From Alphaproteobacteria bacterium (lineage in GTDB: Bacteria > Pseudomonadota > Alphaproteobacteria > Caulobacterales > Hyphomonadaceae): a stretch of 33,093 nt of DNA. Shown piece after piece: positions 1-24,757 of the stretch; position 1 is the first letter of the stretch, and each line of letters starts with the position of its first letter. The notes beneath the pieces are model-generated. The model was not told where the DNA came from, did not search any database, and saw only the letters and a list, made by a program, of their open reading frames with translations. Where the stretch lies: NCBI GenBank assembly GCA_018969425.1, contig JAGWYJ010000036.1, positions 1 to 33,093 on the forward strand. Reading direction: 5' to 3'. Both the position numbers and the translations under genes were made by a program.

Positions 1-1468
1 GTGAGAGCGCGCCAACCGGATTGTTCTGGAAGACTGTCAGGAAGGCTGGAGACGAACCGGCCTTCACGCGCGAGACGAGGAAACCGTCCTTGTCGTCAGA
101 GGAGTAACGCGCGCCGGCGGTGAGACGCAGATCATCGGTCACATTCCAGGTCGCCTGCCCGAAAAGGGCCGCCGATTGTGTCTTTTGGGAATAGAAGAAG
201 GTGGAGTTATCTCCAACCAGCAAGGCACGGCCAGGCGCGGGAGGAAACTTGCGATTGCCATGCTCGGCGATCGTCAGAGAGGTTGTGTAGGTCAGACTCT
301 GGGAGAAGAGATAGACCCCAGCAAGGTAGCTGATGGTCTGATCGACCGGCGAAGCGATACGGATTTCTTCGCTCCAGCCCTCAGATCTGAGGGACTGCGA
401 GCCCGTCGCAGTCGCCTGTGGGAGACCGTCAGCCGCCAGCTTCCGGATATCGTCCTTGTAGCCGTTATAGGCGGTGATCGAGGTCAGCGTATGACCGTTC
501 TCCAGATCCCAGTTGAACGAGGCTGACGCCCCGTAGACATCGGTGACGTTGTCGCCCTCATAATCGTCGTCCACGACATGATCGCCGCTGGTGAAGTTTC
601 TGAAAGGCCTTCCGATGGCGGTCGCAGCAGCGAGGAAGCCGCTCGTCGCAATGCCGGTTGAGGCGGTGGGATTGATCTGATCCGCTGTGCAGCAATTGGC
701 GTCGATGCGGGACATATAGCCGATGAAATCCGCTGTCAGCGTATCTGAAGGCTTCCACTGCAGGCGCCCGCGAACGCCCATCTGAGACTGGCCGTTGACA
801 TCATCGCCGTCATAAAGGTTCGTCTCATACCCGTCCCGGTCGGAGTACCAGGCCGACACGCGGCCCGCGAGGGTGTCGGATAAGCCGCCGCCGATAAAAC
901 CGCTGATTCGCTTCTCGGAGTAATCGCCAAGACCGATAGTGAGGCCCTTCTCCGCCGTCTGGGTCGGAGCGCGGGTGGTGATGTTCACGGCGCCGACAGG
1001 CGTGTTGCGACCGTAGAGCGTGCCCTGAGGACCGCGAAGAACCTCGACCGCATTGACATCCTGGAGGTTACCCTGAATGGGCCCGGCGGCGATGATATAG
1101 ACCCCGTCGATAAAGATACCGACGCTCTGCTCGATGCCCGGGTTGGTTCCCGAGGTTCCGATGCCGCGAATGAACACCGTCGAGTTGCGATTGTTGTTCG
1201 ACTGCGTGATCGACAGGCTGGGGATCGACTTCGCCAGTTCGGCGACGTTGGCGATCCCGGCCTCCTCGAGATAGTCGCCGCTGACCGCCGACACGGACAT
1301 CGCGACATCCTGAATGTCCTCGGTTCGCTTGGACGCCGTCACGACGATCGTATCTCGCCGCGTCTCGAGCTGGGCCTCCTGGGCCGTCGCCTCGAGAGGC
1401 GCTCCGGCCCCCAGCAAAGCTGCAAGCGATGTGCTCGCAAGCGCACCGAAACGAATTCTGGCGGTCAT
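1..1468 (-). CDS. TonB-dependent outer-membrane receptor, N-terminal 489 residues (3' end outside window)
   Basis: The reading frame is open from the ATG at 1468 to the left edge, so about 489 of an expected 700-850 residues are present. A signal peptide (residues 1-30, ending ATAQ) is followed by a TonB-box-like DTIVVTA (39-45). Next comes a plug domain (about 50-165) with the usual RGIGTSG, FIDGVY and EVLRGPQGTLYGRN motifs, then the start of the beta-barrel. The family imports siderophores, glycans or hydrophobic substrates across the outer membrane using TonB-ExbBD energy. Lack of any iron-uptake neighbour and presence of many catabolic genes favour an organic substrate (inference). The start is backed by a GGGGAGGG ribosome-binding site. 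A palindrome shared with three other promoters lies about 90 bp upstream. Family call is secure; substrate unknown. Confidence 0.95.
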   Translation of the reverse strand, partial: MTARIRFGALASTSLAALLGAGAPLEATAQEAQLETRRDTIVVTASKRTEDIQDVAMSVSAVSGDYLEEAGIANVAELAKSIPSLSITQSNNNRNSTVFIRGIGTSGTNPGIEQSVGIFIDGVYIIAAGPIQGNLQDVNAVEVLRGPQGTLYGRNTPVGAVNITTRAPTQTAEKGLTIGLGDYSEKRISGFIGGGLSDTLAGRVSAWYSDRDGYETNLYDGDDVNGQSQMGVRGRLQWKPSDTLTADFIGYMSRIDANCCTADQINPTASTGIATSGFLAAATAIGRPFRNFTSGDHVVDDDYEGDNVTDVYGASASFNWDLENGHTLTSITAYNGYKDDIRKLAADGLPQATATGSQSLRSEGWSEEIRIASPVDQTISYLAGVYLFSQSLTYTTSLTIAEHGNRKFPPAPGRALLVGDNSTFFYSQKTQSAALFGQATWNVTDDLRLTAGARYSSDDKDGFLVSRVKAGSSPAFLTVFQNNPVGALS

Positions 1469-1828
1469 GCAGTCCCTCCCCTTTTTTGTCCCTCGCCTGC
1501 CTCATTTATCCCCCGGATCGGTTTCGACCCGGGCTCGGGGACAGTTTCTATATCCGGAAACAGAGTTCCGCTTCTGATTAGCTTGCAGAGCGCATTCCTT
1601 GTCAAGCCGAGCTGCAGCGTGAACCTAAGCCCAAACCCGAAGGAATGCCCGGCCAGCGGCGATCGCCCCGAAACTCGCTTCGACAGAGGAAACGCCTGAA
1701 GGCGTCCATGACCGCTGCGCTTCCTTGTGAAGGCAACTCAAATTCGCCCCCTCGCGCGGCGGCGGAAGTCGGGGGCGATGAGGGCCAGTTCGGCGGCGGC
1801 CTTACAAGCCGAGGCGCCCGCCCCGCGG
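1469..1828. other. Intergenic stretch: receptor promoter region and 3' flank of the GNAT gene
   Basis: There is no credible gene in these 360 bases; ORFs here lack family features and ribosome-binding sites. The part next to the receptor carries the shared inverted repeat (1555-1570) and a TATAGA element read on the minus strand (1552-1547). The rest is unremarkable GC-rich sequence. Confidence 0.6.
1554..1570 (-). promoter_or_regulatory. Candidate TetR-type operator (site A) upstream of the TonB receptor
   Basis: On the minus strand the site reads CGGAActctgtTTCCGG, two half-sites separated by six bases. It is followed one base later by TATAGA and AAAC. The same half-site arrangement, in the same direction, occurs at 5100-5116, 10191-10207 and 12754-12770. 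Sites A and B also share the downstream ATAGAAAC, which fits a -10 element next to a repressor site. Confidence 0.6.
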
Positions 1829-2299
1829 TCAGACCGGACTGAAACGTTTTTCCATGAAAACGTTAAAGTCTGTGGCTTCATAATCGGCGAAGGGATCGCA
1901 CCACTCAAAGCCGTAACGCAGATAAAGGGAGTGCGCGGCGGCGAAACTCTCGCCTGTTCCCGTTTCGAGGAAGAGGCTCGCATAGCCGCGCTCCCGCGCC
2001 GTTCGGATGATCTCCTCAAGAACCGCCTGCCCCACGCCCTGTCTCAGAAAAGCCGTCCGGGTGCGCATCGACTTGATCTCGCCGGAGCGCGAATTGAGGG
2101 CCTTAAGTGCGCCGCAGCCGCATAGCTGATCGCCTTTCCAGACCGACCAGAAGGTGACCTCAGGCCTGCGTAGCCCCTCCACAGCCAGCGCATGAACAGT
2201 GCCGGGCGGCGAGGCGCCGGTCATGCCTGCCAGATGCTCAGCGATCAGCGCCGCGACATCAGGACCGGACAGATCATCGATACGGACCTCGAAGATCAT
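1829..2299 (-). CDS. GNAT-family N-acetyltransferase
   Basis: This 156-residue protein has the normal size of a single-domain GCN5-related acetyltransferase. The acetyl-CoA pyrophosphate-binding motif is RQGVGQA (residues 86-92), following strand 4 (IKSMRTR). The C-terminal part has the typical LETGTGESFAAAHSLYLRYGF segment. It would transfer an acetyl group from acetyl-CoA to an amine. The closest remembered relatives are small YsnE/ElaA-like GNATs of unknown substrate. It lies alone between the receptor promoter and the MFS gene on the same strand, 227 bp from the latter, with only a weak AAGG ribosome-binding site. A link to the catabolic genes is not evident. Confidence 0.88.
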   Translation of the reverse strand: MIFEVRIDDLSGPDVAALIAEHLAGMTGASPPGTVHALAVEGLRRPEVTFWSVWKGDQLCGCGALKALNSRSGEIKSMRTRTAFLRQGVGQAVLEEIIRTARERGYASLFLETGTGESFAAAHSLYLRYGFEWCDPFADYEATDFNVFMEKRFSPV

Positions 2300-2485
2300 G
2301 TGCGCCTTTCAGCGATCCGGCCGACAGGAGGCGAAGCGGGACCGACGCGGCCGTCATATCGCACAAACCGCGCGCTCGCACCTGCCTGACGACAGGACGT
2401 CGGGGGGCCTCTTTCGCGGGAGTGAGGCGTCAGAAGGCCACGCCAGAGCGCACCCACCGACAGTCGCGAGAGGACCTGTCCCGGA

Positions 2486-2499
2486 CCTGAAGGTTCAGG
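2486..2499 (-). terminator. Small hairpin after the MFS gene
   Basis: CCTGAA-GG-TTCAGG is a perfect short inverted repeat 28 bp past the MFS stop codon. There is no clear U-tract, so a terminator role is tentative. Confidence 0.3.
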
Positions 2500-2526
2500 A
2501 GACTTGCCCGAAGGACCGTTCGCATC

Positions 2527-3822
2527 TCAGCCCGCCCCCACCTTGGCGGAAGCCCCGCCCTCAGCGGCGCGAGCCTCAAGGCTTCGTCCCGCGACATAAA
2601 ACCGCCAGACGGCGAACACCTTCAGAGCAACGACAACCAGAAGAGCGAGGCGCAGGCTGCCCGCCCCGGAGGTCGGGGCGAAAGCGTCCGACAGCATACC
2701 GATCAGAACCGGTCCCCCGCCCTGTCCGACCAAGCCCAGAACGAAGAGAAGGATAGCGGCCGCCATGGCCCGCATGGCGGGCGGCGCCAGGGTCTGAACG
2801 GCGCCGTAGACCGGTCCGGTGAACGCGTTTGTCAGGAAGGTCGGGATAGCCAGCCACATCAGCGCGACCATGAAGGACGGCGCGCTGAAAACAAAGAAAT
2901 AGAAGGGAATGGTGATCAGGATCTGAAGTCCCGGGATCCAGGCATACCAACGCATGCCGCCCTTCCCGAAATAATCCGCCAGCCAGCCTCCGAGAAACGT
3001 TCCCGCTCCGCTGAAGACGCCGATGGTGAGCCCAAGATAAAGGCCGACCTCAGCCGTCCCGAGCCCGTAGGTGCGGATGAAGAAGCTCGGCATCCACTGA
3101 GTGATGCCGTAGGCGGTGAAGGCCTGAATTGTCGCGGCGATAACGAGGTCCCGGTAGGCCTTCATTTTCCAGAGGTGCGAAAACACCATGCGGACGCTGG
3201 GCCGATCCTCCTTGGCGACAGAGTAGGACCGTGTCGGCTCACGGACAACCAGTCCGAAAACCACAGCAAGCAGAACGCCGGGCAGACCGACGACGAAGAA
3301 CGCCGTTCGCCAGTCAAAGGCCTCATTGATCCAGCCGCCGGCTGCAAGTCCCACGAGAATGCCAACCGGCACCCCGCAGCTGTAAATGGCCAGAGCCACG
3401 GCACGTTTTCCATGGGGATAGAGATCCGCCAGCATGGAGTGCGTGGGAGGGCTCGCCCCAGCCTCCCCGACCGCAACCCCGATCCTCGCGAGCATAAGCT
3501 GCAGGAAGTTCTGCGCAAACCCGCAGAGGGCCGTCATGGCGCTCCAGGCGGCGAGCGAAGCCATGATGATCCTTCGACGGGAAGCGCGATCAGCCAGTCG
3601 GGCGAGCGGTATGCCGAAGACGGCGTAAAACAGAGCAAAGGCGAAACCCGTCAGCCAGCCGAGCTGAGAATCCGAAAGCTTGAGGTCTTCCTTGATGGAC
3701 TGAAGCAGGATGGAAAGTATCTGCCGGTCGACATAGTTCACGACGTTGATCAGAAAGAGAAAGGCAAGCGCAATCCCCGCAGCTCGGGCGACAGGCGGTC
3801 CGGAAGCGTCGGTCTGGTTCAT
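2527..3822 (-). CDS. MFS transporter, spinster-like
   Basis: A 431-residue polytopic membrane protein with a hydrophobic pattern fitting 12 transmembrane helices. The major-facilitator loop 2-3 signature appears as GIPLARLADRASRRR (residues 70-84), and the first helix contains NVVNYVDRQILSILL, typical of the spinster-like subgroup common in sphingomonads and Caulobacterales. It would move a small organic molecule or acid across the inner membrane by proton coupling. The start is supported by GGGGAGAG eight bases upstream. It sits between the GNAT gene and a GST on the same strand and may serve the catabolic locus as importer or exporter. The substrate cannot be deduced. Confidence 0.93.
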   Translation of the reverse strand: MNQTDASGPPVARAAGIALAFLFLINVVNYVDRQILSILLQSIKEDLKLSDSQLGWLTGFAFALFYAVFGIPLARLADRASRRRIIMASLAAWSAMTALCGFAQNFLQLMLARIGVAVGEAGASPPTHSMLADLYPHGKRAVALAIYSCGVPVGILVGLAAGGWINEAFDWRTAFFVVGLPGVLLAVVFGLVVREPTRSYSVAKEDRPSVRMVFSHLWKMKAYRDLVIAATIQAFTAYGITQWMPSFFIRTYGLGTAEVGLYLGLTIGVFSGAGTFLGGWLADYFGKGGMRWYAWIPGLQILITIPFYFFVFSAPSFMVALMWLAIPTFLTNAFTGPVYGAVQTLAPPAMRAMAAAILLFVLGLVGQGGGPVLIGMLSDAFAPTSGAGSLRLALLVVVALKVFAVWRFYVAGRSLEARAAEGGASAKVGAG

Positions 3823-3838
3823 GTCTCTCTCCCCTTAA

Positions 3839-3898
3839 GCGTCATGCCTGTTATAAATTTTCAGTCGGCTTTATGACGCAGAAAACACCTCATGACGC
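3839..3898. promoter_or_regulatory. Repeated GCGTCAT/ATGACGC elements upstream of the MFS gene
   Basis: GCGTCAT at 3839-3845 is followed by its complement ATGACGC at 3873-3879 and again at 3892-3898. The first two form an inverted repeat with 27 bases between arms; the second and third are direct repeats 19 bases apart. The cluster lies 17-76 bp before the MFS start codon, where a regulator would bind. This differs from the CGGAA/TTCCG motif found elsewhere in the window. Confidence 0.4.
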
Positions 3899-3944
3899 TG
3901 ACACGTCGAACGGGACCCATGAAACGCCCTTTGTTGGCGTATTG

Positions 3945-5000
3945 TCATGACTGAAACAGGGCGTCACAACCCGTCTCGCGCAGAACCCGGTCCAGTCTCT
4001 GCCGGTCATCCGGACTCAGAGTGTCACGACTCGCTCTCAGCCAGCCGAGGCATTTGACCTGATAGGCGAAAGGCTGCTGGGTCCATCGCGCTCCGTCGAT
4101 GACCGTATCAACCTCCGAAGCGCCGCTGCGGATCGCCCGCTCATTGGCGAGGAGAAGAGGAACATAGACCCGGCCGATCTCAGCAATGAGAGCCAGAAGC
4201 GTCGAGGGAAGATCCGACATCTCGACCCAGTCGCTGTCCTCAGGCTCAAGGCCGGAGAGATCTTCGACCGATCCGGTGTAACCGTAAACCCGCGGCGCGC
4301 GTTCCATAGTGACCGCCATGCTCGTCGGATCAAAGTGAGCGAGCTGGGTCAACTGACCGAACATCCCGAAATCCGATCCGCCCGGACGGGCGCCGAGGCA
4401 GTACCGGTGGGACTTCAGATGCTCTTCGAAAATGTCGAGATAACGGTGATAGCTGGCCTCGATGATCGGACCTGTCGTCTCGTTGGACCCGACATAGCGC
4501 AATCGCGGGATCTGACGGGAGGAGACCATGGCGCCGGCGGCGGCGAGCTCCTCATCGCTCATCGGCTTGCGAGACCAGGTCGGCAGGACGCGCGAGGCCT
4601 TGTCGATGTCGGCGGCGTAGGCCCAGCGATAGTGGAACATCGCCTTGGTCAGCCACTCGTCGGCGTAATCCTCAATCAGCAGATCGATGACCTTGAGGGC
4701 GGGATCGACAGGCCGGACGGACCGGTGCGCAACCTCACGCTCGAAACGGTCGATCAATGGCGTGCTGTCTGTGACCGCCTCGAGCCGTCCGTCGGATCCG
4801 GGGAGAAGGAAGGTCGGCAACAGCGGCGGCTTCGCCATCGGGATATTGCCGGTCACCTGGGATCCGAGCACCATGCGGTAGGGAATACGCCGGTAACGAA
4901 GGACGGCCGCCATCTTGCGCGTATAGGGAGATCCGGGAACACCGAAGAAGGTGACCACCCCATCCCGCAGGATCTCTTCCGCATCGAGCGTCCGGACCAT
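3945..5000 (-). CDS. Long glutathione S-transferase family protein (GST-1)
   Basis: The protein has about 351 residues. It has a thioredoxin-fold N-terminus (VTFFGVPGSPYTRKMAAVL, with SPY at the usual glutathione-contact position), a proline before the next strand (PLLPTFLLP), an STPLIDRFE motif, and an all-helical C-terminus. It is 100-130 residues longer than classical GSTs. The extension ends in RETGCDALF and is shared with GST-3 (RIMTETGCDPF), so the two are paralogues. An in-frame ATG at 5018 exists, but the ATG at 5000 is preceded by GGAGAA at proper spacing and is preferred. It is divergent from the DUF1330/acyl-CoA ligase operon across a 156-bp promoter region. It may conjugate, isomerise or cleave an electrophilic pathway intermediate (inference). 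Confidence 0.88.
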   Translation of the reverse strand: MVRTLDAEEILRDGVVTFFGVPGSPYTRKMAAVLRYRRIPYRMVLGSQVTGNIPMAKPPLLPTFLLPGSDGRLEAVTDSTPLIDRFEREVAHRSVRPVDPALKVIDLLIEDYADEWLTKAMFHYRWAYAADIDKASRVLPTWSRKPMSDEELAAAGAMVSSRQIPRLRYVGSNETTGPIIEASYHRYLDIFEEHLKSHRYCLGARPGGSDFGMFGQLTQLAHFDPTSMAVTMERAPRVYGYTGSVEDLSGLEPEDSDWVEMSDLPSTLLALIAEIGRVYVPLLLANERAIRSGASEVDTVIDGARWTQQPFAYQVKCLGWLRASRDTLSPDDRQRLDRVLRETGCDALFQS

Positions 5001-5099
5001 GGCGCCGTTCTCCCACATCGACTTATATGTTCTCCGCCAGAGGACCGGCGACGAGCTTTAGGACCGGCTAATTGAAAACGCCGGGAAACAAAAGTAAAG

Positions 5100-5116
5100 C
5101 GGAGTTGTGATTCCGG
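5100..5116 (+). promoter_or_regulatory. Candidate TetR-type operator (site B) before the DUF1330/ligase operon
   Basis: The plus strand reads CGGAGttgtgaTTCCGG, immediately followed by TATAGA (5117-5122), a plausible -10 element. A strong AGGAGG ribosome-binding site follows at 5141-5146, before the ATG at 5157. The site lies between divergent genes, so it could also control GST-1. One position of the left half-site deviates from CGGAA. Confidence 0.6.
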
Positions 5117-5156
5117 TATAGAAACAAACGGGATCCGCCAAGGAGGAGAGACGAGG

Positions 5157-5609
5157 ATGGAGCTTCACAACGCCCTGATGCCGAACCCGGACGTCGCTAT
5201 GCGGTTCCGCTCAAGCGCCGATCCCACCCCTGTAGTGATGCTGAACCTTCTCAGGTTCCGGCCGCGAGCGGTTTATGCGGACGGACGGCAGAGCGATCTC
5301 ACGGGCGAAGAAGCCTTCATGATCTACTCGGCCGCGATGAATAAGATCGTGACAGGTTTTGGGGGACGCTTCATCGTCTCCGCCCTCGTCGACGAACTGG
5401 TGATCGGCTCAGGAGAGCTTGTCTGGCATCGGGTCGCAATGGTCGAGTATCCTTCAAGACAAGCCTTCATAGCTGTCGCCTCCTCCCCTGAGGTGAAGGA
5501 GGCTGCAGTCCACCGCCATGCGGGTCTTGAAGGTCAGCTTCTGATCTCAACGCGTCTGCAGTCTCTCCTGGGAAAGCCGGTCGGGGCGGGCGAAAGGGCG
5601 TCGGCATGA
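5157..5609 (+). CDS. DUF1330-like small alpha/beta-barrel protein
   Basis: A 150-residue soluble protein. The segments PVVMLNLLRFRPRA, GEEAFMIYSAAM and WHRVAMVEYPSRQAFIAVASSPEV match the pattern of DUF1330/dimeric ferredoxin-like proteins, which often sit beside oxidative or CoA-dependent catabolic genes. No signal peptide is present. It is the first gene of a two-gene operon: its TGA overlaps the ATG of the acyl-CoA ligase by four bases, implying translational coupling. AGGAGG lies ten bases before the start. No enzymatic function is established for most of the family; a role as a small isomerase, decarboxylase-like or ligand-binding partner of the ligase pathway is inference. Confidence 0.8.
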   Translation: MELHNALMPNPDVAMRFRSSADPTPVVMLNLLRFRPRAVYADGRQSDLTGEEAFMIYSAAMNKIVTGFGGRFIVSALVDELVIGSGELVWHRVAMVEYPSRQAFIAVASSPEVKEAAVHRHAGLEGQLLISTRLQSLLGKPVGAGERASA

Positions 5610-7165
5610 GACCGATGGATACCTCCATGGCGGGTCTCATTGACCGCCATGTCCGGGAACGTCCTGAGGCTGTGGCGATCCGGTTCAACGGTCGAGACAC
5701 CACCTTTAAAGCCCTTGAGAATCTGTCGAACCGGATGGCGAACGCGATGATCGCCGAAGGCCTTGAGCCCGGTGACCGGATCGCGATTCTCGCGAAGAAC
5801 TCGGACCAGTATCTGGCCATGGTTCTCGCCTCAGCGAAGGCCCGGGTATGCGCTGTCACCCTGAACTGGCGACTTGCGCCATCTGAAATCGCCTACATTC
5901 TCGAGCATAGCGACGCGAAGCTTCTGTTTGTCGAACCGGAGTTTCTCGCCTCCCACGCTGCGCCGATCGAAGCGGCTGGTCAGCTGCGACGCTGCCTAGA
6001 ATTCTCTCCCGACAGCCCCGGCTCCGTCGCGGAGACATGGTGGATGTCCGCCCCGGCGACACCCCCGGCGACTGTCAGTGAGGCCAGCGACGATTTCGTG
6101 CAGATGTATACGAGCGGAACCACCGGCCTCCCCAAGGGCGTGGTTCTGACCCATGGCGGCTATCTCGCCGCCTATGTCGCCGTGAATGCGCTCGCCTGGG
6201 CGCGGTATGACGAGACCGACACCATCTTCCCTCCAAGTCCGTTTTTCCATGTCTCGGGGCTGAATGTGGCGCTGCGCGCGCTCAACACCGGAGCGCGGGT
6301 GATCCTGCGTCCGATGTTCATTCCGACCGAAGCCCCGGACGTCATCGTCCGCGAGGGCGTGACGCGGGCGCTGATGGTGCCTGCGGTCATCGCGCAGCTC
6401 CTGGCGACGCCGAGCGTCCGGCAGCTCGACTTCTCGCGTCTCAAAATGATCACGTATGGCGGCTCGCCCATGCCTCCGAAAGTCCTCGAAGAAGCGCAGC
6501 AGGTCTTCGGGTGCAGTTTTGTTCAGGGCTATGGCCTGACCGAAACCGGAGGCCAGGCGACCTTCCTCGATCCGGACGATCACCGGACCGGCGGACGCCG
6601 GCTGGGATCCTGCGGCCGCCCGACGCCCGGCTGCGAGGTTCGCATCTGCGACCCCGACGGGCAGACGCTTCCGCCTGAGACCGTCGGTGAGATTCAGATC
6701 CGCTCGACCAGCATGATGAAGGAATACTGGAAAAACCCCGAGGCGACGAGCGCGACCATGTCGGGGGACTGGCTGAAGACAGGCGACGCCGGTTACCTGG
6801 ATGCCGACGGCTATCTCTACATTCATGACCGGGTGAAGGACATGATCGTCTCAGGCGGGGAGAACATCTATCCCACCGAGGTGGAGAACGCCCTGTCCTC
6901 CTATCCCGGCGTGGCAGAGGTCGCCGTGATCGGCGTTCCTGATGAAAAATGGGGCGAAGCGGTCAAGGCGCTCGTCGTGCCCAAGCCCGGCGCTCAGATC
7001 GACACCGCCGGGCTGATCGCTCACGCACGCGAAAGGATAGCCGGGTACAAGCTCCCCAAGTCCGTCGACTTTGTATCGCCCCTGCCCCGCAACGCTTCGG
7101 GGAAAATACTTCGACGCGCCTTACGCGAACCTTTCTGGGCGGGACGGTCCAAACAGGTCGGCTGA
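5606..7165 (+). CDS. AMP-forming acyl-CoA synthetase (fatty acid or aryl acid CoA ligase)
   Basis: A full-length ANL-superfamily enzyme of 519 residues. Seen motifs are the P-loop YTSGTTGLPKG (168-178), GYGLTETGG (308-316), the hinge/core TGDAGYLDADGYLYIHDRVKDM (from 392), GGENIYPTEVE (418-426), and the C-terminal catalytic lysine in PRNASGK (K500). It would adenylate a carboxylic acid with ATP and load it onto CoA in the cytoplasm. Sequence style fits medium/long-chain fatty acyl or aromatic/steroid acid ligases; the acid cannot be specified. It overlaps the DUF1330 gene by four bases and converges with GST-2, leaving only five bases between stop codons. Its promoter carries operator site B, placing CoA activation under the same putative control as the receptor and the GSTs. 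Confidence 0.95.
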   Translation: MRPMDTSMAGLIDRHVRERPEAVAIRFNGRDTTFKALENLSNRMANAMIAEGLEPGDRIAILAKNSDQYLAMVLASAKARVCAVTLNWRLAPSEIAYILEHSDAKLLFVEPEFLASHAAPIEAAGQLRRCLEFSPDSPGSVAETWWMSAPATPPATVSEASDDFVQMYTSGTTGLPKGVVLTHGGYLAAYVAVNALAWARYDETDTIFPPSPFFHVSGLNVALRALNTGARVILRPMFIPTEAPDVIVREGVTRALMVPAVIAQLLATPSVRQLDFSRLKMITYGGSPMPPKVLEEAQQVFGCSFVQGYGLTETGGQATFLDPDDHRTGGRRLGSCGRPTPGCEVRICDPDGQTLPPETVGEIQIRSTSMMKEYWKNPEATSATMSGDWLKTGDAGYLDADGYLYIHDRVKDMIVSGGENIYPTEVENALSSYPGVAEVAVIGVPDEKWGEAVKALVVPKPGAQIDTAGLIAHARERIAGYKLPKSVDFVSPLPRNASGKILRRALREPFWAGRSKQVG

Positions 7166-7170
7166 CCCGC

Positions 7171-8328
7171 TCAGAGAACGGCGAGACGGTTTCTCACGCG
7201 GGTCAGCCGGCGAGCAGGCCTGAGACCGACGAGATCCCCGGCGCCGCACTCAAGGGCGAAGCGATCAGCCTGCTCCCGCTCCGGCAGAGAGAGACCATCG
7301 CGCCAGTCCAGGATCCTCTGAAGCATCCATAAAGGATGCAGGGGCGCATTGAGCTCCATGGGCCGCCCCCTCAGCACGATGCGGGCCGGACCGACCGGAG
7401 GCTGATCCAGATCCGCCTCCGAGATCACGCTTCCTGACGGCAGATCCGGGTGAGCTTCGACCCAGTCTGAAAACAGGCGGGCGCTTTGCTTATAAAGATC
7501 GGTCCAGTCCGAACAGTAACGGCGCAGCATCTCCTTCACAGAAGAGGGAACTTCGTCGTGTCCGAGATAGGCCTGCGGATAGTCCCAGAACTCAGGCGAA
7601 ACAATCTCCGGGGCGTTCATGTGTTCAACCCAGCGAAACACCCTGGGCGCTCGTCGCTGCATCACATGGAGGGGATAAGGGTCACGGCCCAGATGGGCGA
7701 ACAAGGGCCCCATGAGAGCAAAATCCGCCATGGAGGGCAGACCGCCGAAGAGATATGGCAGGTCCCGGAAGTGCTGCTCGAGAGTGTCCAGCCATTCAAG
7801 GTAGATCTCCTCGAGAACGGGGAAGATCTCCGGCGTAATCCCGAACACCGAGGCGTATCCGCTCATCCGGTCTGCGATCAGCCCCCCATAGCGATCGACC
7901 TCCTCATCGCTTCCCCTTGGACTGAAGCTCCGTCCGAACTCCGTGCGCACGAAATGCGCATTGGTCTCCATGAAGTTCCAGCGATAATGCCAGGCGACCT
8001 TGGAGTTCTCGCTGAAGAAGAGATCAAGAAGGTAGGCGGCAAGCGACTGCTGAGGGCCCGGGGGCGTCGCCGGCGGATCGGGATAGCGCGCCTCGAGATG
8101 GTCGAAGATGGCTGTGGTGTCCTGAACGATCAGGCCGTCGGCGTCCTCGATGATGGGAATGCGTTTGGATTCAGCAGTGGGTCGCACGACAGAGCGGAAA
8201 CGCGGGTGAGACGGCGGACGCTCCACAAACGGAATGCCTTTCTTGCGCAGATAGCTCCGTGTCTTGGCCGTGTAGTAAGAAGCGTAAGATCCGTAGAGCG
8301 TCACCATTCGCCGGTCTTCGCCTGACAT
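7171..8328 (-). CDS. Long glutathione S-transferase family protein (GST-2)
   Basis: A 385-residue protein with an N-terminal thioredoxin-like domain (MVTLYGSYASYYTAKTRSYL near residues 9-28, then RIPIIED and VQDTTAIFDHLE) and a long helical domain with LPYLFGGLPSMADFALMGPL, the N-capping-box region of GSTs. It is much longer than classical GSTs and resembles GST-1 and GST-3 in layout, but its C-terminus diverges and lacks the ETGCD tail. GGGAGGA just upstream supports the start. A 165-bp gap separates it from GST-3, and an imperfect relative of the operator (half-site TTCCG) lies 63 bp upstream, so it may have its own promoter. Substrate is unknown. Confidence 0.86.
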   Translation of the reverse strand: MSGEDRRMVTLYGSYASYYTAKTRSYLRKKGIPFVERPPSHPRFRSVVRPTAESKRIPIIEDADGLIVQDTTAIFDHLEARYPDPPATPPGPQQSLAAYLLDLFFSENSKVAWHYRWNFMETNAHFVRTEFGRSFSPRGSDEEVDRYGGLIADRMSGYASVFGITPEIFPVLEEIYLEWLDTLEQHFRDLPYLFGGLPSMADFALMGPLFAHLGRDPYPLHVMQRRAPRVFRWVEHMNAPEIVSPEFWDYPQAYLGHDEVPSSVKEMLRRYCSDWTDLYKQSARLFSDWVEAHPDLPSGSVISEADLDQPPVGPARIVLRGRPMELNAPLHPLWMLQRILDWRDGLSLPEREQADRFALECGAGDLVGLRPARRLTRVRNRLAVL

Positions 8329-8493
8329 GTCGTCCTCCCGAAACGGATAAAACCTGACGCGAGATCAGCTTATGAAACGTCTGGAGCGAGCGGAACCGGT
8401 CGTCCCAGACCTGCCCGCGTACGCGTGCCGCGAGAAACGCCAGAGCTTAGGATGGTCATGGTGTCGCTCCTCCAGTTGCGTTGTCGTCTGCGA

Positions 8494-9486
8494 TCAGACG
8501 AGAAAAGGATCACACCCGGTTTCGGTCATGATCCTTGCCAGATCGCCATCGGATCGTGCGGCGGCGTAACGGTCGCGCAGAACAGCCAGAGAGCGCGCAT
8601 GATATTTCTGCGGCCCCTGGACGTAGGCGCCTCCCGGAAGATCGACGCTGAAAGACGCCTCTCCCGCGCCCAGCGCCGCGGCGTTGGCGCGCGACCAGGG
8701 CAGAAAGTGCTCAGCCACATAAGCGAGGATCGGTGTCAGAGTGCCCTCGAGATCCTCCCAGCGTTCAAAAGGGCCGTCCTGGCGGGGGTCGAGCATCCGG
8801 TGGCACCAGTCGAGAACCGCCGGGCCGCGTGCGCGCAGGCCGGCGCCGCAGGTCGGATCAACGGACGCTTCATAGAGCTGCGCTGCGAGCCCGAAATCTC
8901 CAAAGCACGGACGTCCGCCGAGGAGGTAGCGCCTTGAGGAGAAATGGGCCTCAAGGAGGTCAACCAGATCAAAGAAGTATCGCGTGATCAGGGGCGCCGT
9001 CTCAGCGCTCGAGCCGACGAAGCTTCCGCGGCCGGTCATACGCGAGCGTATGACAGCAGCTCTTTCCGTCGTCTCCTCAGGTGTCGCCTGAGGCAGGGAC
9101 AGACGGGCGAGGACAAGCGAGGCGGCGGCCTGATCGACCGGATCCCACCACCGGTGATGGAACATCAGCTTATTGCCCCACTCGTCTCCAAACTCCTCGA
9201 GAAGATACGAGATGAAGCGCAGAGCAGGATCGACAGGATGGATCGACGGATCGGGAAACAGCGGATCAAGATGCTCGATAATCGGGGTCGAATCCTGAAT
9301 GCCCTCGCCCGACGGGGTCGCCACGGTCGGGACGATGGGGAGGCGGGAGTAGCGCTTATACTCCTCATCGTTTTCCGCTCTCCGGGCGATCCAATGATGG
9401 GGGATCGCCTTGTACCGGAAGTAGGATCGCACCTTCACCGAATAGGGCGACATCTCGGATCCGAAGATACGGAACATCTCTGTCAT
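8494..9486 (-). CDS. Long glutathione S-transferase family protein (GST-3)
   Basis: A 330-residue GST-fold protein. The N-terminal domain shows FRIFGSEMSPYSVKVRSYFRY (with SPY as in GST-1), LPIVPTVATP and GIQDSTPIIEHLD; the helical domain has RRYLLGGRPCFGDFGLAAQLYE. Its C-terminal extension ends in IMTETGCDPFLV, matching GST-1. The ATG overlaps the stop codon of the upstream GST-4 gene by four bases (ATGA), so the pair is translationally coupled. The two proteins are different GST subclasses, which argues for two successive glutathione-dependent steps rather than a simple duplication (inference). Confidence 0.88.
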   Translation of the reverse strand: MTEMFRIFGSEMSPYSVKVRSYFRYKAIPHHWIARRAENDEEYKRYSRLPIVPTVATPSGEGIQDSTPIIEHLDPLFPDPSIHPVDPALRFISYLLEEFGDEWGNKLMFHHRWWDPVDQAAASLVLARLSLPQATPEETTERAAVIRSRMTGRGSFVGSSAETAPLITRYFFDLVDLLEAHFSSRRYLLGGRPCFGDFGLAAQLYEASVDPTCGAGLRARGPAVLDWCHRMLDPRQDGPFERWEDLEGTLTPILAYVAEHFLPWSRANAAALGAGEASFSVDLPGGAYVQGPQKYHARSLAVLRDRYAAARSDGDLARIMTETGCDPFLV

Positions 9487-10172
9487 GTCGGATTTCCTTC
9501 AGCCGGCGCCGCTGGATCTGCAGCACCTTTCATCGCGGACTGTCTCCGCGCAAAATCTTCCTTGCCGATATTGGCGCCTCTCACGACCGCCTCGCGGGCG
9601 CCGACGTCCTTGAACCAGCGGCGAACGGCGGGGAACTCGGCCAGATCGATCCCCAGCGACTTGTAGCCCCGGATCCAGGGCCAGCACGCCATGTCCGCGA
9701 TCGAATACTCTCCGGCAAGATAGGGCGCCTCGGCGAGCCGGCGATCCATCACCCCATAGAGACGGCGAGCCTCCTTGCCATAGCGCTCGACCGCATAGGG
9801 GATCGGATCTTTCATATAGCCGAAATGCGCCGCCTGACCGAGCATGGGCCCGAGACCCGCGCACTGCCAGAAGAGCCATTGCTCGACGAGCGAACGCTGG
9901 CGGCGGTCGGAGGGATAAAACCGCCCTGTCTTCTCTCCGAGATACTGAAGGATGGCCCCGCTTTCGAACACCGACCAGGGCTCACCTCCCGGACCGTCAT
10001 GATCTACGATCGCCGGCATGCGGGCGTTAGGAGAGATCGCGAGAAAGGCGGGAGAAAACTGCTCGCCCTGGCTGAGATTGACCTCAGACAGGCGATAATC
10101 GAGGCCCGTCTCCTCCAGCATGATGGTGATCTTCCAGGCGTTGGGCGTCGGCCAGAAATGGAGTTCGATCAT
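9483..10172 (-). CDS. Classical-size glutathione S-transferase (GST-4), nu-class/YfcG-like
   Basis: From the ATG at 10172 the protein has 229 residues, the normal GST length. It shows LHFWPTPNAWKITIMLEETGL (thioredoxin helix 1), SPNARMPAIVDHD (cis-proline) and SVFESGAILQYLGEK (glutathione gamma-glutamyl contact ES), then a C-terminal domain with APYLAGEYSIADMACWPW. This pattern fits the bacterial YfcG/YghU-type disulfide-bond oxidoreductase or beta-etherase-like GSTs. An in-frame upstream start at 10223 is possible but would place the operator inside the gene; GGAGAGG before 10172 supports the shorter form. It follows the tetR gene by 61 bp, with operator site C in between. Confidence 0.92.
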   Translation of the reverse strand: MIELHFWPTPNAWKITIMLEETGLDYRLSEVNLSQGEQFSPAFLAISPNARMPAIVDHDGPGGEPWSVFESGAILQYLGEKTGRFYPSDRRQRSLVEQWLFWQCAGLGPMLGQAAHFGYMKDPIPYAVERYGKEARRLYGVMDRRLAEAPYLAGEYSIADMACWPWIRGYKSLGIDLAEFPAVRRWFKDVGAREAVVRGANIGKEDFARRQSAMKGAADPAAPAEGNPT

Positions 10173-10190
10173 GTCGGAGCCTCTCCAGAA

Positions 10191-10207
10191 CCGGAATCGT
10201 ACTTCCG
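10191..10207 (-). promoter_or_regulatory. Candidate TetR-type operator (site C) between tetR and GST-4
   Basis: The minus strand reads CGGAAgtacgaTTCCGG, with both five-base half-sites perfect. It ends 19 bases before the GST-4 ATG, so binding would block initiation. Same spacing and orientation as sites A, B and D. Confidence 0.65.
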
Positions 10208-10233
10208 ATATCTGAAAGCCCACCGCCCCCTTG

Positions 10234-10911
10234 TCAACGACTCTGGGGAAGGGATTGAGGATCCAGCCTGAGATAGCCCCAGAGCAGCGCTGTCAGAGAC
10301 TCAATCGTCTCCGGAGTGCTCAGCTTCGGACGCTCACGCTGACTGAGAATGAGGCGCTGAATAAGAACGGCCTCAATCGACTTGATCGCAAAAACACACG
10401 CCTCATCGAGATCCGGACGATCAGAGGCGCCGACAGACCGGAGAAAACCGGCGAGCCGCCGCCCGGCATGCTCATCCGTCTGGCGAAGGGTCTCCACTCC
10501 TGCGATCGGCATACCCGCCAGCGATCTCTGAAACAGGGCGCGGAAGAAGCCGGCTCGCCGCTCGATAGCCCGGGTGGTGTTGCCCACGAGAGTGTAGACG
10601 AGCTCTCCTGCCGAGGCGCTCCGCCATTTCGGCATGTCGAAAAACCGGTCGATATTGATCAGAGCGCGATTGACGAACTCGATCTGCAGAGCGTGGAAAA
10701 GAGCGTCCTTGTCCCGAAAGCGCCGATAGAAACTCCCGATCGAAACATTGGCCGCCGCGGCGATGTCGCTGACATGGGCGCCGTCATACCCCATGCGCGC
10801 AAACACCGCCTCTCCCGCCTGAAGCAGACGCTGCTGGGCCTCCCGGCTTCGCACCTGACGAGCCGGTATGACGCCGTCGATTGTCTCAAGCTCTGAGAGA
10901 GAGGCGGCCAT
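10234..10911 (-). CDS. TetR-family transcriptional regulator (TetR-1)
   Basis: A 225-residue regulator with a TetR N-terminal helix-turn-helix: QRLLQAGEAVFARMGYDGAHVSDIAAAANVSIGSFYRRFRDKDALFHAL spans about residues 27-75, including the conserved FYRRFRDKD recognition-helix end. The C-terminal ligand-binding domain is variable. It lies 30 bp after the sulfatase stop and 61 bp before GST-4, on the same strand, so it is embedded in the gene set it probably controls. The palindrome repeated at four promoters is the natural candidate for its operator, though this is inference. Its ligand may be the pathway substrate or a CoA ester. Confidence 0.92.
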   Translation of the reverse strand: MAASLSELETIDGVIPARQVRSREAQQRLLQAGEAVFARMGYDGAHVSDIAAAANVSIGSFYRRFRDKDALFHALQIEFVNRALINIDRFFDMPKWRSASAGELVYTLVGNTTRAIERRAGFFRALFQRSLAGMPIAGVETLRQTDEHAGRRLAGFLRSVGASDRPDLDEACVFAIKSIEAVLIQRLILSQRERPKLSTPETIESLTALLWGYLRLDPQSLPQSR

Positions 10912-10941
10912 GATCAGGGGCTCCGTGACACGGACTTTGCG

Positions 10942-12570
10942 TCAGTTGCCCCAGTATACATAATCATCTTCCGGCATCTGGATAGATGCGAGGGAGTGAT
11001 CAATCGACACAGGGCTCGCCCCCAGCTCTGGCCAAAGGGGCGGCGCCTGATCCTGGTCGTGGCGGGCGATCAGCGCCTTCAGCTCGGCGACCTTCTCAGG
11101 CATCGCCCCAGCCAGATCGCGACGCTCCGTCGGATCGAGGGCCAGATTGAACAGCCAGTCCTTTTTCGGAAGTTCGCTGGTCTGCAGCTTCCAGTCCCCG
11201 GAGCGAACGACCTTGTAAGCGCCGGTGCGCCAGAAGAGCGTCTGATGCGGGCGGCCCGCCTTCTTCCCCCTGACGAAAGGCGTAAGGTCGACCCCGTCGA
11301 TGACCCGGTCGGAGGGCGCTTTGCCGCCGGCGGCGGCGAGCGCCGTCGAGAACAGATCGAAATGATGCACCGGGGCCTGATAGCGGGTCCCGGCGGGGAT
11401 CACGCCCGGCCACTTGATGAAGTAGGGCGTGCGGATGCCGCCCTCAAAGAAAGTCTGCTTCCACCCCCGAAACGGCTTATTTATGTCTTCAAGACCGATG
11501 TAGTGAGCTCCGCCATTGTCGCTGACGAACATCACGATGGTGTCTTTCTCCAGTCCGTTCTCCTCAAGAGCGCCAAGGAGGCGTCCGACATTACGATCGA
11601 GAGACCGGATCATCGCCGCATAGACTCTCAGCCGGTGATCCTTGATGTGCGCCAGCGCGTCATAATCGGCGCGCGAGGCCTGAAGCGGATTATGAGGCGC
11701 GAAGTAGGCCATGTAGAGGAAGAAGGGGCGGTTCCTGTTGGCCTCAACCGCACGAATGGCTTCGTCGGTGAAGTAATCCGTCGTGTAGCGTTTGGGCGCG
11801 AAACGGGGTCCGCCGTCCTTGATCGCGGCGAACGGCATAGAGTTCCACAGGAACGTGTCGATGGGATCAAAGGTCTGCACCGCATTGACGACCTCGGGAT
11901 GATCTTTCGGAAGATAGAGCGATCCGCCGGAAGGGATTTCGAGGGATTCGTCAAAGCCCTGGGCGCGCGGCGAGAGATTGGGGGTGCTCCCAAGGTGCCA
12001 CTTTCCGATATGGACGTTATAGTATCCGACCTCGTGCAGAGCTTCAGCGAGCGTCACCTCCGTCTCGGGAACGCCCATACGATCGGGCGAAGGAACTGAT
12101 GCGTCCCGATCCGGATAGGAGACGGGATTGCGGATCCCGTACTGATACGAACGGATGAACTGCGACATGCCCGGAGGCGTCGGCGTGAACTCGTAGCCGA
12201 ACCTCGTTCCATACCGACCTGTCATGAGAGCCGCGCGGGACGGAGCGCAGGTGCCGTGGGCGGTATATCCCTGAGCGAACGAGACGCCTTCGCGTGCAAG
12301 GGAGTCGATGTTTGGCGTCGGAACGCTTCCTCCGGCGACACCGCCGCCCTCAAAGGTCAGGTCGTTGAACCCCAGATCATCAGCGACGATGAGAATGATG
12401 TTGGGCTTGCGCTTGCCCTTAGGCGCCGTCGCAGGACCTTTGGTCCACACGATATCCTGCGGCGGCCCCACCGGCGGCGCAGCGGCGCGAGGCGGGGCCT
12501 GAGCGCTCGCCGCGGATGCAAGAAGCCCGATGCCAAGGATAACGGCCCTGACCGTGTGGATGGTCTTCAT
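10942..12570 (-). CDS. Exported type I sulfatase (arylsulfatase family)
   Basis: From the ATG at 12570 the protein has 542 residues with a signal peptide (MKTIHTVRAVILGIGLLASAASA). The sulfatase core starts with PNIILIVADDLGFNDL (metal ligands D64, D65). It contains CAPSRAALMTGRYG (about 108-121), in which C108 is the residue oxidised to formylglycine, then HIGKWHLG and FVSDNGG. The enzyme would hydrolyse sulfate esters in the periplasm or outside the cell and needs a formylglycine-generating enzyme, not seen here. The longest reading frame begins at a TTG at 12750, but GGGAGAGG before 12570 and the signal peptide fix the start there, leaving a leader of about 180 bases after operator site D. 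The substrate is unknown; the neighbours favour a sulfated organic compound. Confidence 0.93.
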   Translation of the reverse strand: MKTIHTVRAVILGIGLLASAASAQAPPRAAAPPVGPPQDIVWTKGPATAPKGKRKPNIILIVADDLGFNDLTFEGGGVAGGSVPTPNIDSLAREGVSFAQGYTAHGTCAPSRAALMTGRYGTRFGYEFTPTPPGMSQFIRSYQYGIRNPVSYPDRDASVPSPDRMGVPETEVTLAEALHEVGYYNVHIGKWHLGSTPNLSPRAQGFDESLEIPSGGSLYLPKDHPEVVNAVQTFDPIDTFLWNSMPFAAIKDGGPRFAPKRYTTDYFTDEAIRAVEANRNRPFFLYMAYFAPHNPLQASRADYDALAHIKDHRLRVYAAMIRSLDRNVGRLLGALEENGLEKDTIVMFVSDNGGAHYIGLEDINKPFRGWKQTFFEGGIRTPYFIKWPGVIPAGTRYQAPVHHFDLFSTALAAAGGKAPSDRVIDGVDLTPFVRGKKAGRPHQTLFWRTGAYKVVRSGDWKLQTSELPKKDWLFNLALDPTERRDLAGAMPEKVAELKALIARHDQDQAPPLWPELGASPVSIDHSLASIQMPEDDYVYWGN

Positions 12571-12753
12571 GATCGCCTCTCCCTCATATGTCATCACGCT
12601 CTGACGGCGTCCGATGACTTCAGCGCCCTGTCGCCTGCCTCTGGTCACGTCGATCTCGTCCCCAAAGAACCAGCCAGGGACGGACCAGACATACGCGTGC
12701 CGGCATAAGTCCGGCGACGCCTCACGAGAACCGCTACAATGGCCGTCCAAAGA

Positions 12754-12770
12754 CCGGAATCTTAATTCCT
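12754..12770 (-). promoter_or_regulatory. Candidate TetR-type operator (site D) upstream of the sulfatase
   Basis: The minus strand reads AGGAAttaagaTTCCGG. The gene-proximal half-site is perfect and the distal one differs at one base. It lies about 185 bp before the start codon, just downstream of a possible promoter. Confidence 0.55.
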
Positions 12771-12776
12771 GTTAGA

Positions 12777-12803
12777 TGTATAATCCGACATTCGGATTGT
12801 AAA
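12777..12803 (-). promoter_or_regulatory. Possible sulfatase promoter with an internal 17-bp palindrome
   Basis: A perfect inverted repeat, AATCCGA-CAT-TCGGATT (12782-12798), sits between TTTACA and TATACA read on the minus strand. These resemble -35 and -10 elements, though their 15-base spacing is short. A regulator bound to the palindrome would cover the promoter. Its sequence is unlike the CGGAA/TTCCG motif, so a second regulator is possible. Confidence 0.4.
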
Positions 12804-12957
12804 TCCGCCGGATCCGCCGTCACCGGAAGGAACAATGATGACAAGGCAGGCGAGTCCGCCTGTGCTGACGTCCGCGCGCGTCCCATCGGGCCAGATATCC
12901 GGACCGCCGTCGCGAGACCCGGGGGGATCGATCTTGAAAGACTAAATCCCGAATAGT

Positions 12958-12987
12958 CCCGCCGCAGGAATAACCCAGAGCGGCGGG
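12958..12987 (-). terminator. Hairpin after the 13047-14084 gene
   Basis: Perfect eight-base arms CCCGCCGC and GCGGCGGG enclose a 14-base loop, 60 bp past the stop codon of the upstream minus-strand gene. Only scattered T residues follow on the minus strand, so it is a plausible but not classical intrinsic terminator. Confidence 0.45.
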
Positions 12988-13046
12988 TCTGCCCGAAGAG
13001 GAGCGCCAGCCTTCACCGTCTCAACAGCGCGTTAAAGCGCTGAGGG

Positions 13047-14084
13047 CTACTGACGATCAATCCGCGAGCGAGGGGCCGTCACCGCCGCCTTGCGTCCTTC
13101 ACGCTCCATCTGCCGGGCGCCGACGAAGATGTTCTGCGTGGAGTAGTTGCCCTCATGGCAGGCATACTCATGGATGCGTTCATTGCTCCGACGGAAGGTA
13201 AGCTCACCCTTCCAGGGCTGCGTGTAGGCGTCCGGATCCTCGACAGTGAACTCGTAGTGCATCTCCTCAGGCCCTGTCAGCGTGAACCGCTCCGTCACCT
13301 TCGACTCGGGAGAGACCCACAGGAACAACCCGAAGTCGACCCGCAGGGCGTCAAGCGGCTTGAAACCCTTGGTTTCGGCAACGAGCGTATCTCCATCCCA
13401 CCAGGCGATGGTGTCGCCCAGATACTGTTTCAGAGCCTCCGGCCGATACTGACCGCCAATCCTCAGAATCCGGGTGTCGTGGATCATCTCGATGTTGATG
13501 GCGACGGCGTCGGGCGTCTGGATGAACTGATGATGGTTGTTGTAGAGCGCGTTCAGCATCGGCGGACCGCCGGTCGAACCAAACCCCACGATGCAGCGCT
13601 CGTTAGCGATCCTCTCTTCGGGATTGTCATATGAGTTGAACGTCGAGACCGCCTTCATCATCGCTGACCGGGCCGCAGGCTTGTACGGCACGCGGCCATT
13701 TGGGGGATCGATGATCCAGGAGGACCTGAGTTCGCCCTTGACCTTGCCGACGCGCGTACCCGGATCGATCCAGAAATAGTTGTAACCCTCCGGATCCTTC
13801 CCCGCCTCAGGCGCACCCTCCGACGGATCGGTTGCAGCGCTGTCCTCTGCTGCGATGCTCGCCGCTTCCTTCTCCCAGTCGAGCGCCTGCTCGGGCGTCA
13901 GGACGAGCTCCTTGAACTCCGGCACGCGCTCGAGACGCGTCAGCGAGGCGTTAGTCCAGACGCCCTGGAAATCAGGCTTTCCCCAAGCGGTTCGGGGCGG
14001 CTCGTACCCGCCGCCCGCCTGCGCCGCAGCCGGCGCAGCGACCAGACACAGGCAGCTTGCAGTCAGACACAGAAGACGGATCAT
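13047..14084 (-). CDS. Exported protein of unknown function
   Basis: From the ATG at 14084 the protein has 345 residues. It has a clear signal peptide (MIRLLCLTASCLCLVAAPAAAQA), then TAWGKPDFQGVWTNASLTRLER. Later segments such as ALYNNHHQFIQTPDAVAINIEMIHDTRI, YLGDTIAWWDGDTLVAETKGF and YEFTVEDPDAYTQPWKGELTF recall a recurring family of secreted proteins of about 300-400 residues. That family is found beside TonB receptors and dehydrogenases in sphingomonads and acidobacteria. I know no assigned reaction. The repeated GDT/TLV strands suggest a beta-rich fold. The upstream ATG at 14108 would add eight polar residues before the signal peptide and is less likely. It is divergent from the NylB-like gene, and a hairpin follows its stop. 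Confidence 0.82.
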   Translation of the reverse strand: MIRLLCLTASCLCLVAAPAAAQAGGGYEPPRTAWGKPDFQGVWTNASLTRLERVPEFKELVLTPEQALDWEKEAASIAAEDSAATDPSEGAPEAGKDPEGYNYFWIDPGTRVGKVKGELRSSWIIDPPNGRVPYKPAARSAMMKAVSTFNSYDNPEERIANERCIVGFGSTGGPPMLNALYNNHHQFIQTPDAVAINIEMIHDTRILRIGGQYRPEALKQYLGDTIAWWDGDTLVAETKGFKPLDALRVDFGLFLWVSPESKVTERFTLTGPEEMHYEFTVEDPDAYTQPWKGELTFRRSNERIHEYACHEGNYSTQNIFVGARQMEREGRKAAVTAPRSRIDRQ

Positions 14085-14311
14085 GCTGTTCCCCGAGGAT
14101 TGAAACACGTTTGGGTAAGTGTCTCACGGATCCAGCTTGCGGGCGAGATCTGACCCAACGTCAAGATCGGACGATACTGACTGAGGCCTCTTCCCGAACG
14201 GCCCGAGACGACACCCGTCCGTCTCTGAGCAGTTGACAACACCTTGGCGAAGTCTCCAGCCTGCTTGCGTTCACTCTGGTCCCGTTTCCCGAAACCAAAG
14301 GCTTCATTCCG

Positions 14312-15574: not shown

Positions 15575-15603
15575 TCCCGCCCGCCTGAAAACAGGAACAC
15601 GAT

Positions 15604-15630
15604 GTCTCCGGCCCTGACCGGGTCGGAGAC
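15604..15630. terminator. Hairpin terminator after the serine hydrolase gene
   Basis: Arms GTCTCCGGCCC and GGGTCGGAGAC pair over 11 bases (one G-U) around a TGACC loop, 30 bp past the stop codon. There is no U-tract. The right part belongs to a 39-bp direct repeat; the second copy sits at the 3' end of the convergent VOC gene, so this was probably once a shared terminator for both genes. Confidence 0.6.
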
Positions 15631-15646
15631 GCCTCAGCCGCTGGCG
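15608..15646. repeat. 39-bp direct repeat, left copy (islet boundary)
   Basis: This segment matches 17503-17541 at 38 of 39 bases (C versus T at the single mismatch). On the minus strand it contains GCC AGC GGC TGA, the last codons of the VOC gene located at the other copy. The two copies bracket about 1.86 kb carrying a LuxR-type remnant and a VapBC pair. Confidence 0.85.
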
Positions 15647-15648
15647 TA

Positions 15649-15852
15649 TCAGAGCCCGAACCTCACGAAACGGGGCGCGAATGCCTGAGCCTGAGGGGCC
15701 ATGGCGCAATCGGGGGTGAAATCTCCGACCGCCTGTGCATCGACGTTTCAACCGTGTGCGGACATCTCGACCAGGCCAAACTCAGACTCGGTGCGAAATC
15801 CCGCGAGTGCGCAGACAATCCTGGCGCGGCAACACGGCGGATCACGCAATGA
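15649..15852 (+). pseudogene. Remnant of a LuxR/GerE-type helix-turn-helix protein
   Basis: The frame translates to a recognisable C-terminal LuxR-type DNA-binding domain: HETGRECLSLRG, then GEISDRLCIDVSTVCGHLDQ and AKLRLGAKSRECA. This has the family pattern EI..L.I...TV..HL..A..KLGA..R..A. No start codon or N-terminal domain precedes it: the frame begins two bases after the 39-bp repeat. It was probably cut at the recombination point. Several usual positions are altered (GHGAIGG where a KEI-type loop is normal), as expected for a decaying copy. Confidence 0.6.
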
Positions 15853-16398: not shown

Positions 16399-16420
16399 GG
16401 CATATGCTACGACATATGCC
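16399..16420. promoter_or_regulatory. Palindromic operator upstream of vapBC-1
   Basis: Perfect eight-base arms, GGCATATG and CATATGCC, flank CTACGA, ending 17 bases before the GTG start. VapB/AbrB antitoxins typically repress their own operon by binding such AT-centred palindromes, so autoregulation is likely. Confidence 0.7.
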
Positions 16421-24751: not shown

Positions 24752-24757
24752 GCCGTG

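Follow-up and report, generated by a model that had tools for sequence, protein, structure and literature searches.

Which signal, if any, joins the genes for uptake, desulfation, coenzyme A (CoA) activation and glutathione chemistry that stand close together in one alphaproteobacterial genome? These genes are found in a stretch of 33,093 nucleotides, referred to here as the window (Hyphomonadaceae; assembly GCA_018969425.1, contig JAGWYJ010000036.1, forward strand), and four similar palindromes accompany them. Judging from sequence comparisons, it is very likely that a TetR-family repressor, most probably the one encoded by the gene tetR1 (10234-10911), uses the palindromes as its operators. 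The sites are real, rare as whole sites and selectively conserved; they are located just downstream of a TTGACA-like box, and they are repeated upstream of homologous genes in a second family. Taken as a whole, this is a conserved local TetR regulon, and it is ordinary in kind.

The four proposed operators and their conservation

Operator A (CGGAACTCTGTTTCCGG; 1554-1570, minus strand) precedes the gene of a TonB-dependent receptor and has a TTGACA box at 1600-1605. Operator B (CGGAGTTGTGATTCCGG; 5100-5116, plus strand), with a TTGAAA box at 5072-5077, is located between two divergent gene pairs, GSTa-MFS on the minus strand and DUF1330-ACS on the plus strand. Operator C (CGGAAGTACGATTCCGG; 10191-10207, minus strand) has the ATG of GSTd 18 bp downstream and a TTGACA box at 10232-10237, and operator D (AGGAATTAAGATTCCGG; 12754-12770, minus strand) precedes sulfatase-tetR, with a TTTACA box at 12798-12803. 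The palindromes were first pointed out in a sequence-only reading of the window, and direct inspection finds all four at the positions and on the strands that it gave, each with a perfect right half (TTCCGG) and a six-base spacer (4/4). That reading also held that all sites face the same way, which is correct for the four sites of the window and wrong as a rule: orientation is not constant in the second family, where the stronger half is frequently reversed, and a fixed orientation was dropped. Its statement that each site lies directly upstream of a pathway gene breaks down at D, where the sulfatase ATG is 183 bp away, and site B, which it assigned to the DUF1330 and acyl-CoA ligase genes, is in a divergent region and could also serve GSTa-MFS. 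A further element, ATAGAAAC, described as common to A and B, is present in the window but its copy at A is lost in the sister genome, and it was discarded as a functional element.

The sister genome, G100, is a metagenome-assembled genome of the same genus (uncultured Alphaproteobacteria bacterium isolate Loclat_bin-04076, the sole locus in the named genome scan). Its cluster has the same gene order as the window and contains all four sites. Between the two genomes none of the 44 half-site bases has changed, compared with 5 of 24 in the spacers and 87 of 490 positions in the flanks, gaps included (half-site against flank, Fisher 4e-4). Operator A is identical at 17/17 bases although 54 of 130 flanking positions differ, and its TTGACA is also intact; operators B, C and D keep their half-sites and have changed in 1/6, 2/6 and 2/6 of their spacer bases, respectively. 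As a separate observation, identity to the sister genome is about 90-92% over positions 1-14359, the regulon half of the window, and about 96-97% over 14445-33093, and the regulon block may have had a different history, or evolved faster, than the rest.

The same sites in a second family

Homologs of TetR1 (E<=1e-20) are found in 6 of 398 genomes of the order, namely the own genome, the sister genome and four from a single genus of another family; in a set of 101 genomes of this second genus, 18 carry them. The clusters of the second genus contain homologs of the TonB receptor, sulfatase, GSTa-d, ACS, MFS and DUF1330 genes, in varying sets. A matrix built exclusively from the eight same-genus sites (two genomes), with matches counted at 12 bits or more, was scanned over 13 stretches, 419 kb in all, from 12 second-family genomes; every stretch contains a TetR1 homolog. 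Not included among these clusters were the two paralog stretches and five others that had been retrieved because of weak matches. The matrix gave 60 sites, a few of them overlapping pairs, in 12 of the 13 stretches (none in G121C3). No more than 300 bp upstream of homologous genes, a space that makes up 6.2% of the bases, lie 49 of the 60, and none lies inside homologous coding sequence, which makes up 32%. With this matrix, 200 kb of control DNA taken from two of these second-family genomes gave no site, and neither did three GSTb stretches that lack TetR1 and had been set apart as negatives (G475C25, G477C147 and G480C214; 61.5 kb; G475 has a TetR1 homolog on another contig). Three hundred column-permuted palindromic matrices gave a mean of 3.8 sites and a maximum of 32, versus the 60 of the real one.

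Some details of these clusters extend the picture. Operators precede many of the GSTa homologs, and in three clusters (G133, G371, G412) a pair of sites, 23 bp apart, stands before the TonB gene, an arrangement that would allow paired binding. In G445 (L137, C163) a sulfatase-maturation gene of the FGE-like kind (14148-15224) has a site at 15236, 11 bp before its called start, and the presence of this gene behind an operator strengthens the desulfation theme. The possibility that one type of TetR goes with symmetric sites and another with GTGAA sites was considered and abandoned, given that both forms of site are found in genomes of both kinds. In a search for the regulon on plasmids TetR1 had no match, GSTb had one match of 35%, and the sulfatase matched 12 records, all below 60%.

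Rarity of the site in the own genome

The short consensus was discarded as evidence by itself, given that it is too common. In the window, CGGAAN6TTCCGG with up to two mismatches occurs 21 times versus 17.6 expected, much as in shuffled sequence. The whole genome (3.245 Mb) has 216 places that match the bare core CGGAAN6TTCCG with at most one mismatch, versus 155 for a reversed control. The joint pattern MGGARN5WTTCCGG occurs 13 times in the 3.245 Mb, and this 33 kb contig accounts for 4 of the 13; the probability of at least four falling here is approximately 7e-6 for a pattern that was written from these same four sites.

Whole sites behave differently. The profile R1 comprises the four window sites, the four G100 sites and the reverse complements of all, and genome scans with R1, as with the broader profile R2 described below, scored the best 150 candidates per genome (for R1 in the own genome, the best 150 of 982). 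At E<=10, R1 found in the own genome the four window sites, a near-copy at G000:C46:4-26 and no others. Since the window and sister sites belong to its training set, this result shows rarity elsewhere and not discovery of these sites. The genome-wide scan that had been proposed as a check on the palindromes therefore has two outcomes, a widely scattered bare core and a whole site that is confined to the four and one near-copy. In the own genome, at E<=3, the profile R2, trained mostly on the second family, recovered operators B, C and D together with the near-copy. R2 contains 46 sequences, the eight same-genus sites and 38 of 45 second-family sites of at least 14 bits, seven weaker or overlapping ones being omitted.

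The first 100 bases of contig 46 (G000:C46:1-100, L062), which include the near-copy, are 96% identical to window 12748-12847, that is, to the region of operator D; beyond base 100 there are unrelated genes whose translations resemble a type I secretion ABC transporter and its membrane-fusion partner. On contig 56 (G000:C56:19424-20899, L176) a second sulfatase, 53% identical, is truncated by the contig end. Contigs 46 and 56 might join, which would give a fifth target, the second sulfatase behind the near-copy of operator D.

TetR1 and its association with the sites

The gene tetR1 (10234-10911, minus strand) starts 30 bp after the sulfatase gene and encodes a TetR-family regulator of 225 amino acids. 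The N-terminal part is a TetR_N helix-turn-helix (PF00440, residues 29-75, 1.3e-15, 57.3 bits against a cut-off of 24), and the C-terminal part matches no Pfam model at E<=0.001. The ortholog in G100 is 88% identical. Among the proteins of the own genome, TetR1 is matched at E<=0.001 by none other than itself and one 53% paralog on contig 64. Its paralogs (G000:C64:5039-5653 and G100:C25:19641-20264; 52-53% identity) have a DUF1330 gene nearby in both genomes, and there is no clear copy of the operator near either.

The gene is probably co-transcribed with the sulfatase gene from the promoter at D. A palindromic operator would in this way stand at the regulator's own promoter as well as at those of its targets: there are four conserved sites, one of them upstream of sulfatase-tetR1, and of 72 site-gene pairs, 10 have a TetR1 homolog of either type as the gene.

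The association between sites and regulator was evaluated with R2 in the 101 second-genus genomes, at E<=0.5 and with the best 80 candidates per genome, under strict filters that lose weak matches. Matches were obtained in 20 genomes: 15 of the 18 with a TetR1 homolog and 5 of the 83 without. Limiting the comparison to the 90 genomes that gave no training site leaves 5 of 7 against 5 of 83 (Fisher 1e-4). GSTb homologs (E<=1e-60) are present in 21 of the 101, and these have an R2 match in 11 of 12 genomes with TetR1 and in 0 of 9 without it. In six of the seven held-out TetR1-positive genomes the local scan site is directly upstream of a GSTa homolog; in the other, G121, it is not adjacent to any listed homolog. 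G412, G427 and G455 gave no match in the 101-genome scan, yet their sites are seen in local scans. The proposal that the tetR gene inside the set encodes the binder is thus backed by association, and TetR1, the best candidate, is most likely the protein that binds the operators.

Position relative to the promoter

A box resembling TTGACA in at least five of its six bases starts 36-45 bp upstream of the operator centre at 26 of 58 distinct sites: 8/8 of the same genus (4/4 in the window) and 18/50 in the second family. Counted by site-gene pairs the figure is 27 of 72, versus a mean of 2.3 and a maximum of 10 after shuffling. With usual promoter spacing, this distance would place the operator over the start region, which is the place of a repressor, and occlusion of the promoter by the operator-bound protein is likely the mode of control. 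A generic promoter scanner gave no match for operators A, B and C and one near D, a promoter-like sequence at 12823-12796 on the minus strand with hexamers that differ from the proposed ones; operator D would then be slightly further downstream of the start.

Alternative explanations

The palindromes could in principle be chance matches in a GC-rich genome, or copies of a general repeat, and the abundance of the bare core at 216 places and the two-mismatch scan, no richer than shuffles, agree with that view. In our reading it is refuted by three results in combination: the absence of further whole sites in the genome, bar the near-copy, in the R1 scan at E<=10, the conservation of half-sites in G100 and the recurrence of the motif at homologous promoters of another family. 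Its remaining probability is negligible. It is also very improbable that TetR1 is an activator or a dual regulator and not a repressor. Activation is known for some TetR-family proteins; here the TTGACA-like box precedes the operator, which covers the likely start region, and from that position a bound protein would be expected to block transcription and not to help it. A rather unlikely explanation is that the operators are real and are read by some other regulator, be it the contig 64 paralog, the TetR encoded at 20723-21394 or one elsewhere, TetR1 being a mere neighbour. This would accommodate the 53% paralog in the own genome and the second-genus genomes that have sites with a distant type of TetR as sole homolog (9/18). 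Against it, the second-family cluster stretches contain no match to the TetR at 20723 at E<=1e-12, the sites track the TetR1 group (15/18 versus 5/83 genomes), and the two TetR types are similar in the segment that would be the recognition helix (SIGSFYRRF, SIGTFYARF or SIGTFYGRF versus SVGSFYRRF). Since the paralog has no clear site nearby and tetR1 lies behind operator D, TetR1 is the better candidate.

The assignment of the operators to TetR1 as a repressor has to be weighed against a number of results that do not favour it. The paralogs themselves could be binders. Half of the TetR1-positive genomes of the second genus (9/18) hold exclusively the distant type of homolog (best E 1e-27 to 1e-32), so that the association is with the TetR1 group and not with the closest relatives alone; all seven TetR1-positive genomes outside the training set are of this kind, and for this reason our confidence in the assignment was lowered, to a level that is high and short of certainty. 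Many second-family sites are asymmetric (GTGAAYN4ATTCCGG). At E<=3, site A escaped R2 in the own genome as well as in the sister genome, and at E<=10 R1 found no site in three of four TetR1-bearing second-genus genomes (G133, G399, G121), whose sites are seen by local scans. A 100 kb control from the own genome gave three matrix matches, of 13.0, 13.2 and 16.1 bits; the four window sites score 23.2 to 28.5 bits. There are weak matches in same-genus genomes without TetR1 (G093, G096 and G103 with R1; G091, G093 and G101 with R2), and R2 matches in five second-genus genomes without it, none of the latter being upstream of a homolog.

A separate group of near-identical, strong site-like sequences is found in L163 (G478:C89) at 1745, L162 (G414:C68) at 981 and L165 (G413:C52) at 10550, in genomes without TetR1 and away from homologous genes. 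They are perhaps the operator of another TetR.

Probable target genes and the proposed pathway

The gaps in the open reading frame table and in the sequence suggest that five transcription units stand behind the four sites, two of them diverging from site B: TonB; GSTa-MFS; DUF1330-ACS; GSTd-GSTc-GSTb; and sulfatase-tetR1. The TonB-dependent receptor (2-1468, minus strand; PF07715, 1.8e-17) is truncated by the end of the window. GSTa (3945-5018, minus strand), which is glutathione S-transferase-like and divergent from the DUF1330 gene across operator B, is followed after 122 bp by the MFS transporter (2527-3822, minus strand; PF07690, 1.8e-53). On the other side of operator B the first gene encodes the DUF1330 protein (5157-5609, plus strand; PF07045, 8.5e-9), and the next an AMP-binding acyl-CoA ligase, ACS (5606-7165, plus strand; PF00501, 1.5e-86). 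GSTd (9483-10172, minus strand), the first gene after operator C, resembles glutathione-dependent disulfide-bond oxidoreductases, with 244 bits to the model of that family, under the cut-off of 332; its stop is overlapped by GSTc (8494-9486, minus strand), and GSTb (7171-8328, minus strand) follows 165 bp after GSTc, both being glutathione S-transferase-like. None of the glutathione-transferase-like proteins matches an NCBIfam model above its cut-off. The sulfatase (10942-12570, minus strand; 542 amino acids) combines a sulfatase domain (PF00884, 9.1e-56, 189.8 bits) with the C-x-P/A-x-R maturation motif of formylglycine-dependent enzymes, in the form CAPSR (C-x-P-x-R) at 12235-12249, residue 108. 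The sulfatase-maturation family PF03781 has five matches elsewhere in the own genome.

The neighbouring block of the window (14312-23212) contains no operator copy at 9 bits or more. It encodes a beta-lactamase-fold hydrolase, a glyoxalase, a PQQ-type protein with a cytochrome domain, a second TetR, an SDR and an alpha/beta hydrolase. Scans of the window with Rfam, at gathering thresholds, and for tRNAs gave no matches.

Conservation in G100 and recurrence of the motif at homologous genes of another family lend strong support to the common regulation of these genes that the sequence-only reading had proposed, and very probably they form one co-regulated degradation pathway, which would be inducible. 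In the proposed mechanism, a dimer of TetR1 would occupy the two half-sites (consensus AACCGGAATNNNNATTCCGGTT), cover the -10 and start region and block transcription, so that all five units would be repressed; repression of sulfatase-tetR1 through site D would amount to autoregulation. A small molecule from the pathway would release the repressor. The regulated genes would then import a large or sulfated substrate and remove its sulfate ester, a product would be activated with CoA, and reactive intermediates would be processed with glutathione. The complete outline, in which one TetR repressor controls the uptake of a sulfate ester through the TonB receptor, its desulfation, CoA activation and up to four glutathione-transferase-like enzymes, and in which regulon and operators are shared by two families of the order, perhaps by transfer, is a possible one that we put forward tentatively.

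Relation to known systems and meaning

No description of this regulon was found in the open-access literature, among the matches listed. The targets of KstR include uptake and CoA-activation genes, and the KstR operator is not known to have the sequence proposed here for TetR1. Among local TetR-family repressor regulons of catabolic pathways, that of KstR serves cholesterol degradation in mycobacteria; as is proposed for TetR1, a TetR-family regulator governs catabolic genes there by way of a motif found at several promoters (PMC1995591, PMC3068626). TetR1 matches the KstR equivalog model weakly (27.6 bits against a cut-off of 280), and its targets differ in including a sulfatase and four glutathione-transferase-like proteins. 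The TetR regulons PsrA, FadP, FabR, LiuQ and RutR have been reconstructed in Proteobacteria by comparative genomics, with evidence of the same kind, predicted sites upstream of orthologous genes; the main text of that paper does not contain the terms sulfatase, glutathione or CGGAA (0 each; PMC5343134). The glutathione-dependent beta-etherase systems of sphingomonads, as in Novosphingobium MBES04, likewise use glutathione-transferase-like enzymes in the breakdown of a natural compound, and the word sulfatase is absent from that paper (PMC10866074). GSTb differs in matching the corresponding model weakly, with 23.3 bits against a cut-off of 440. The etherases belong to the glutathione-transferase-like family.

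The value of the finding is that it defines an uncharacterised pathway: what was a loose set of enzyme genes becomes a defined unit of function whose switch can be read. The operator model is a means to find the full gene set in other bacteria, and in one of them it already adds the gene of a sulfatase-maturation enzyme. The repressor, for its part, offers a handle on the natural substrate, through the molecule that releases it.

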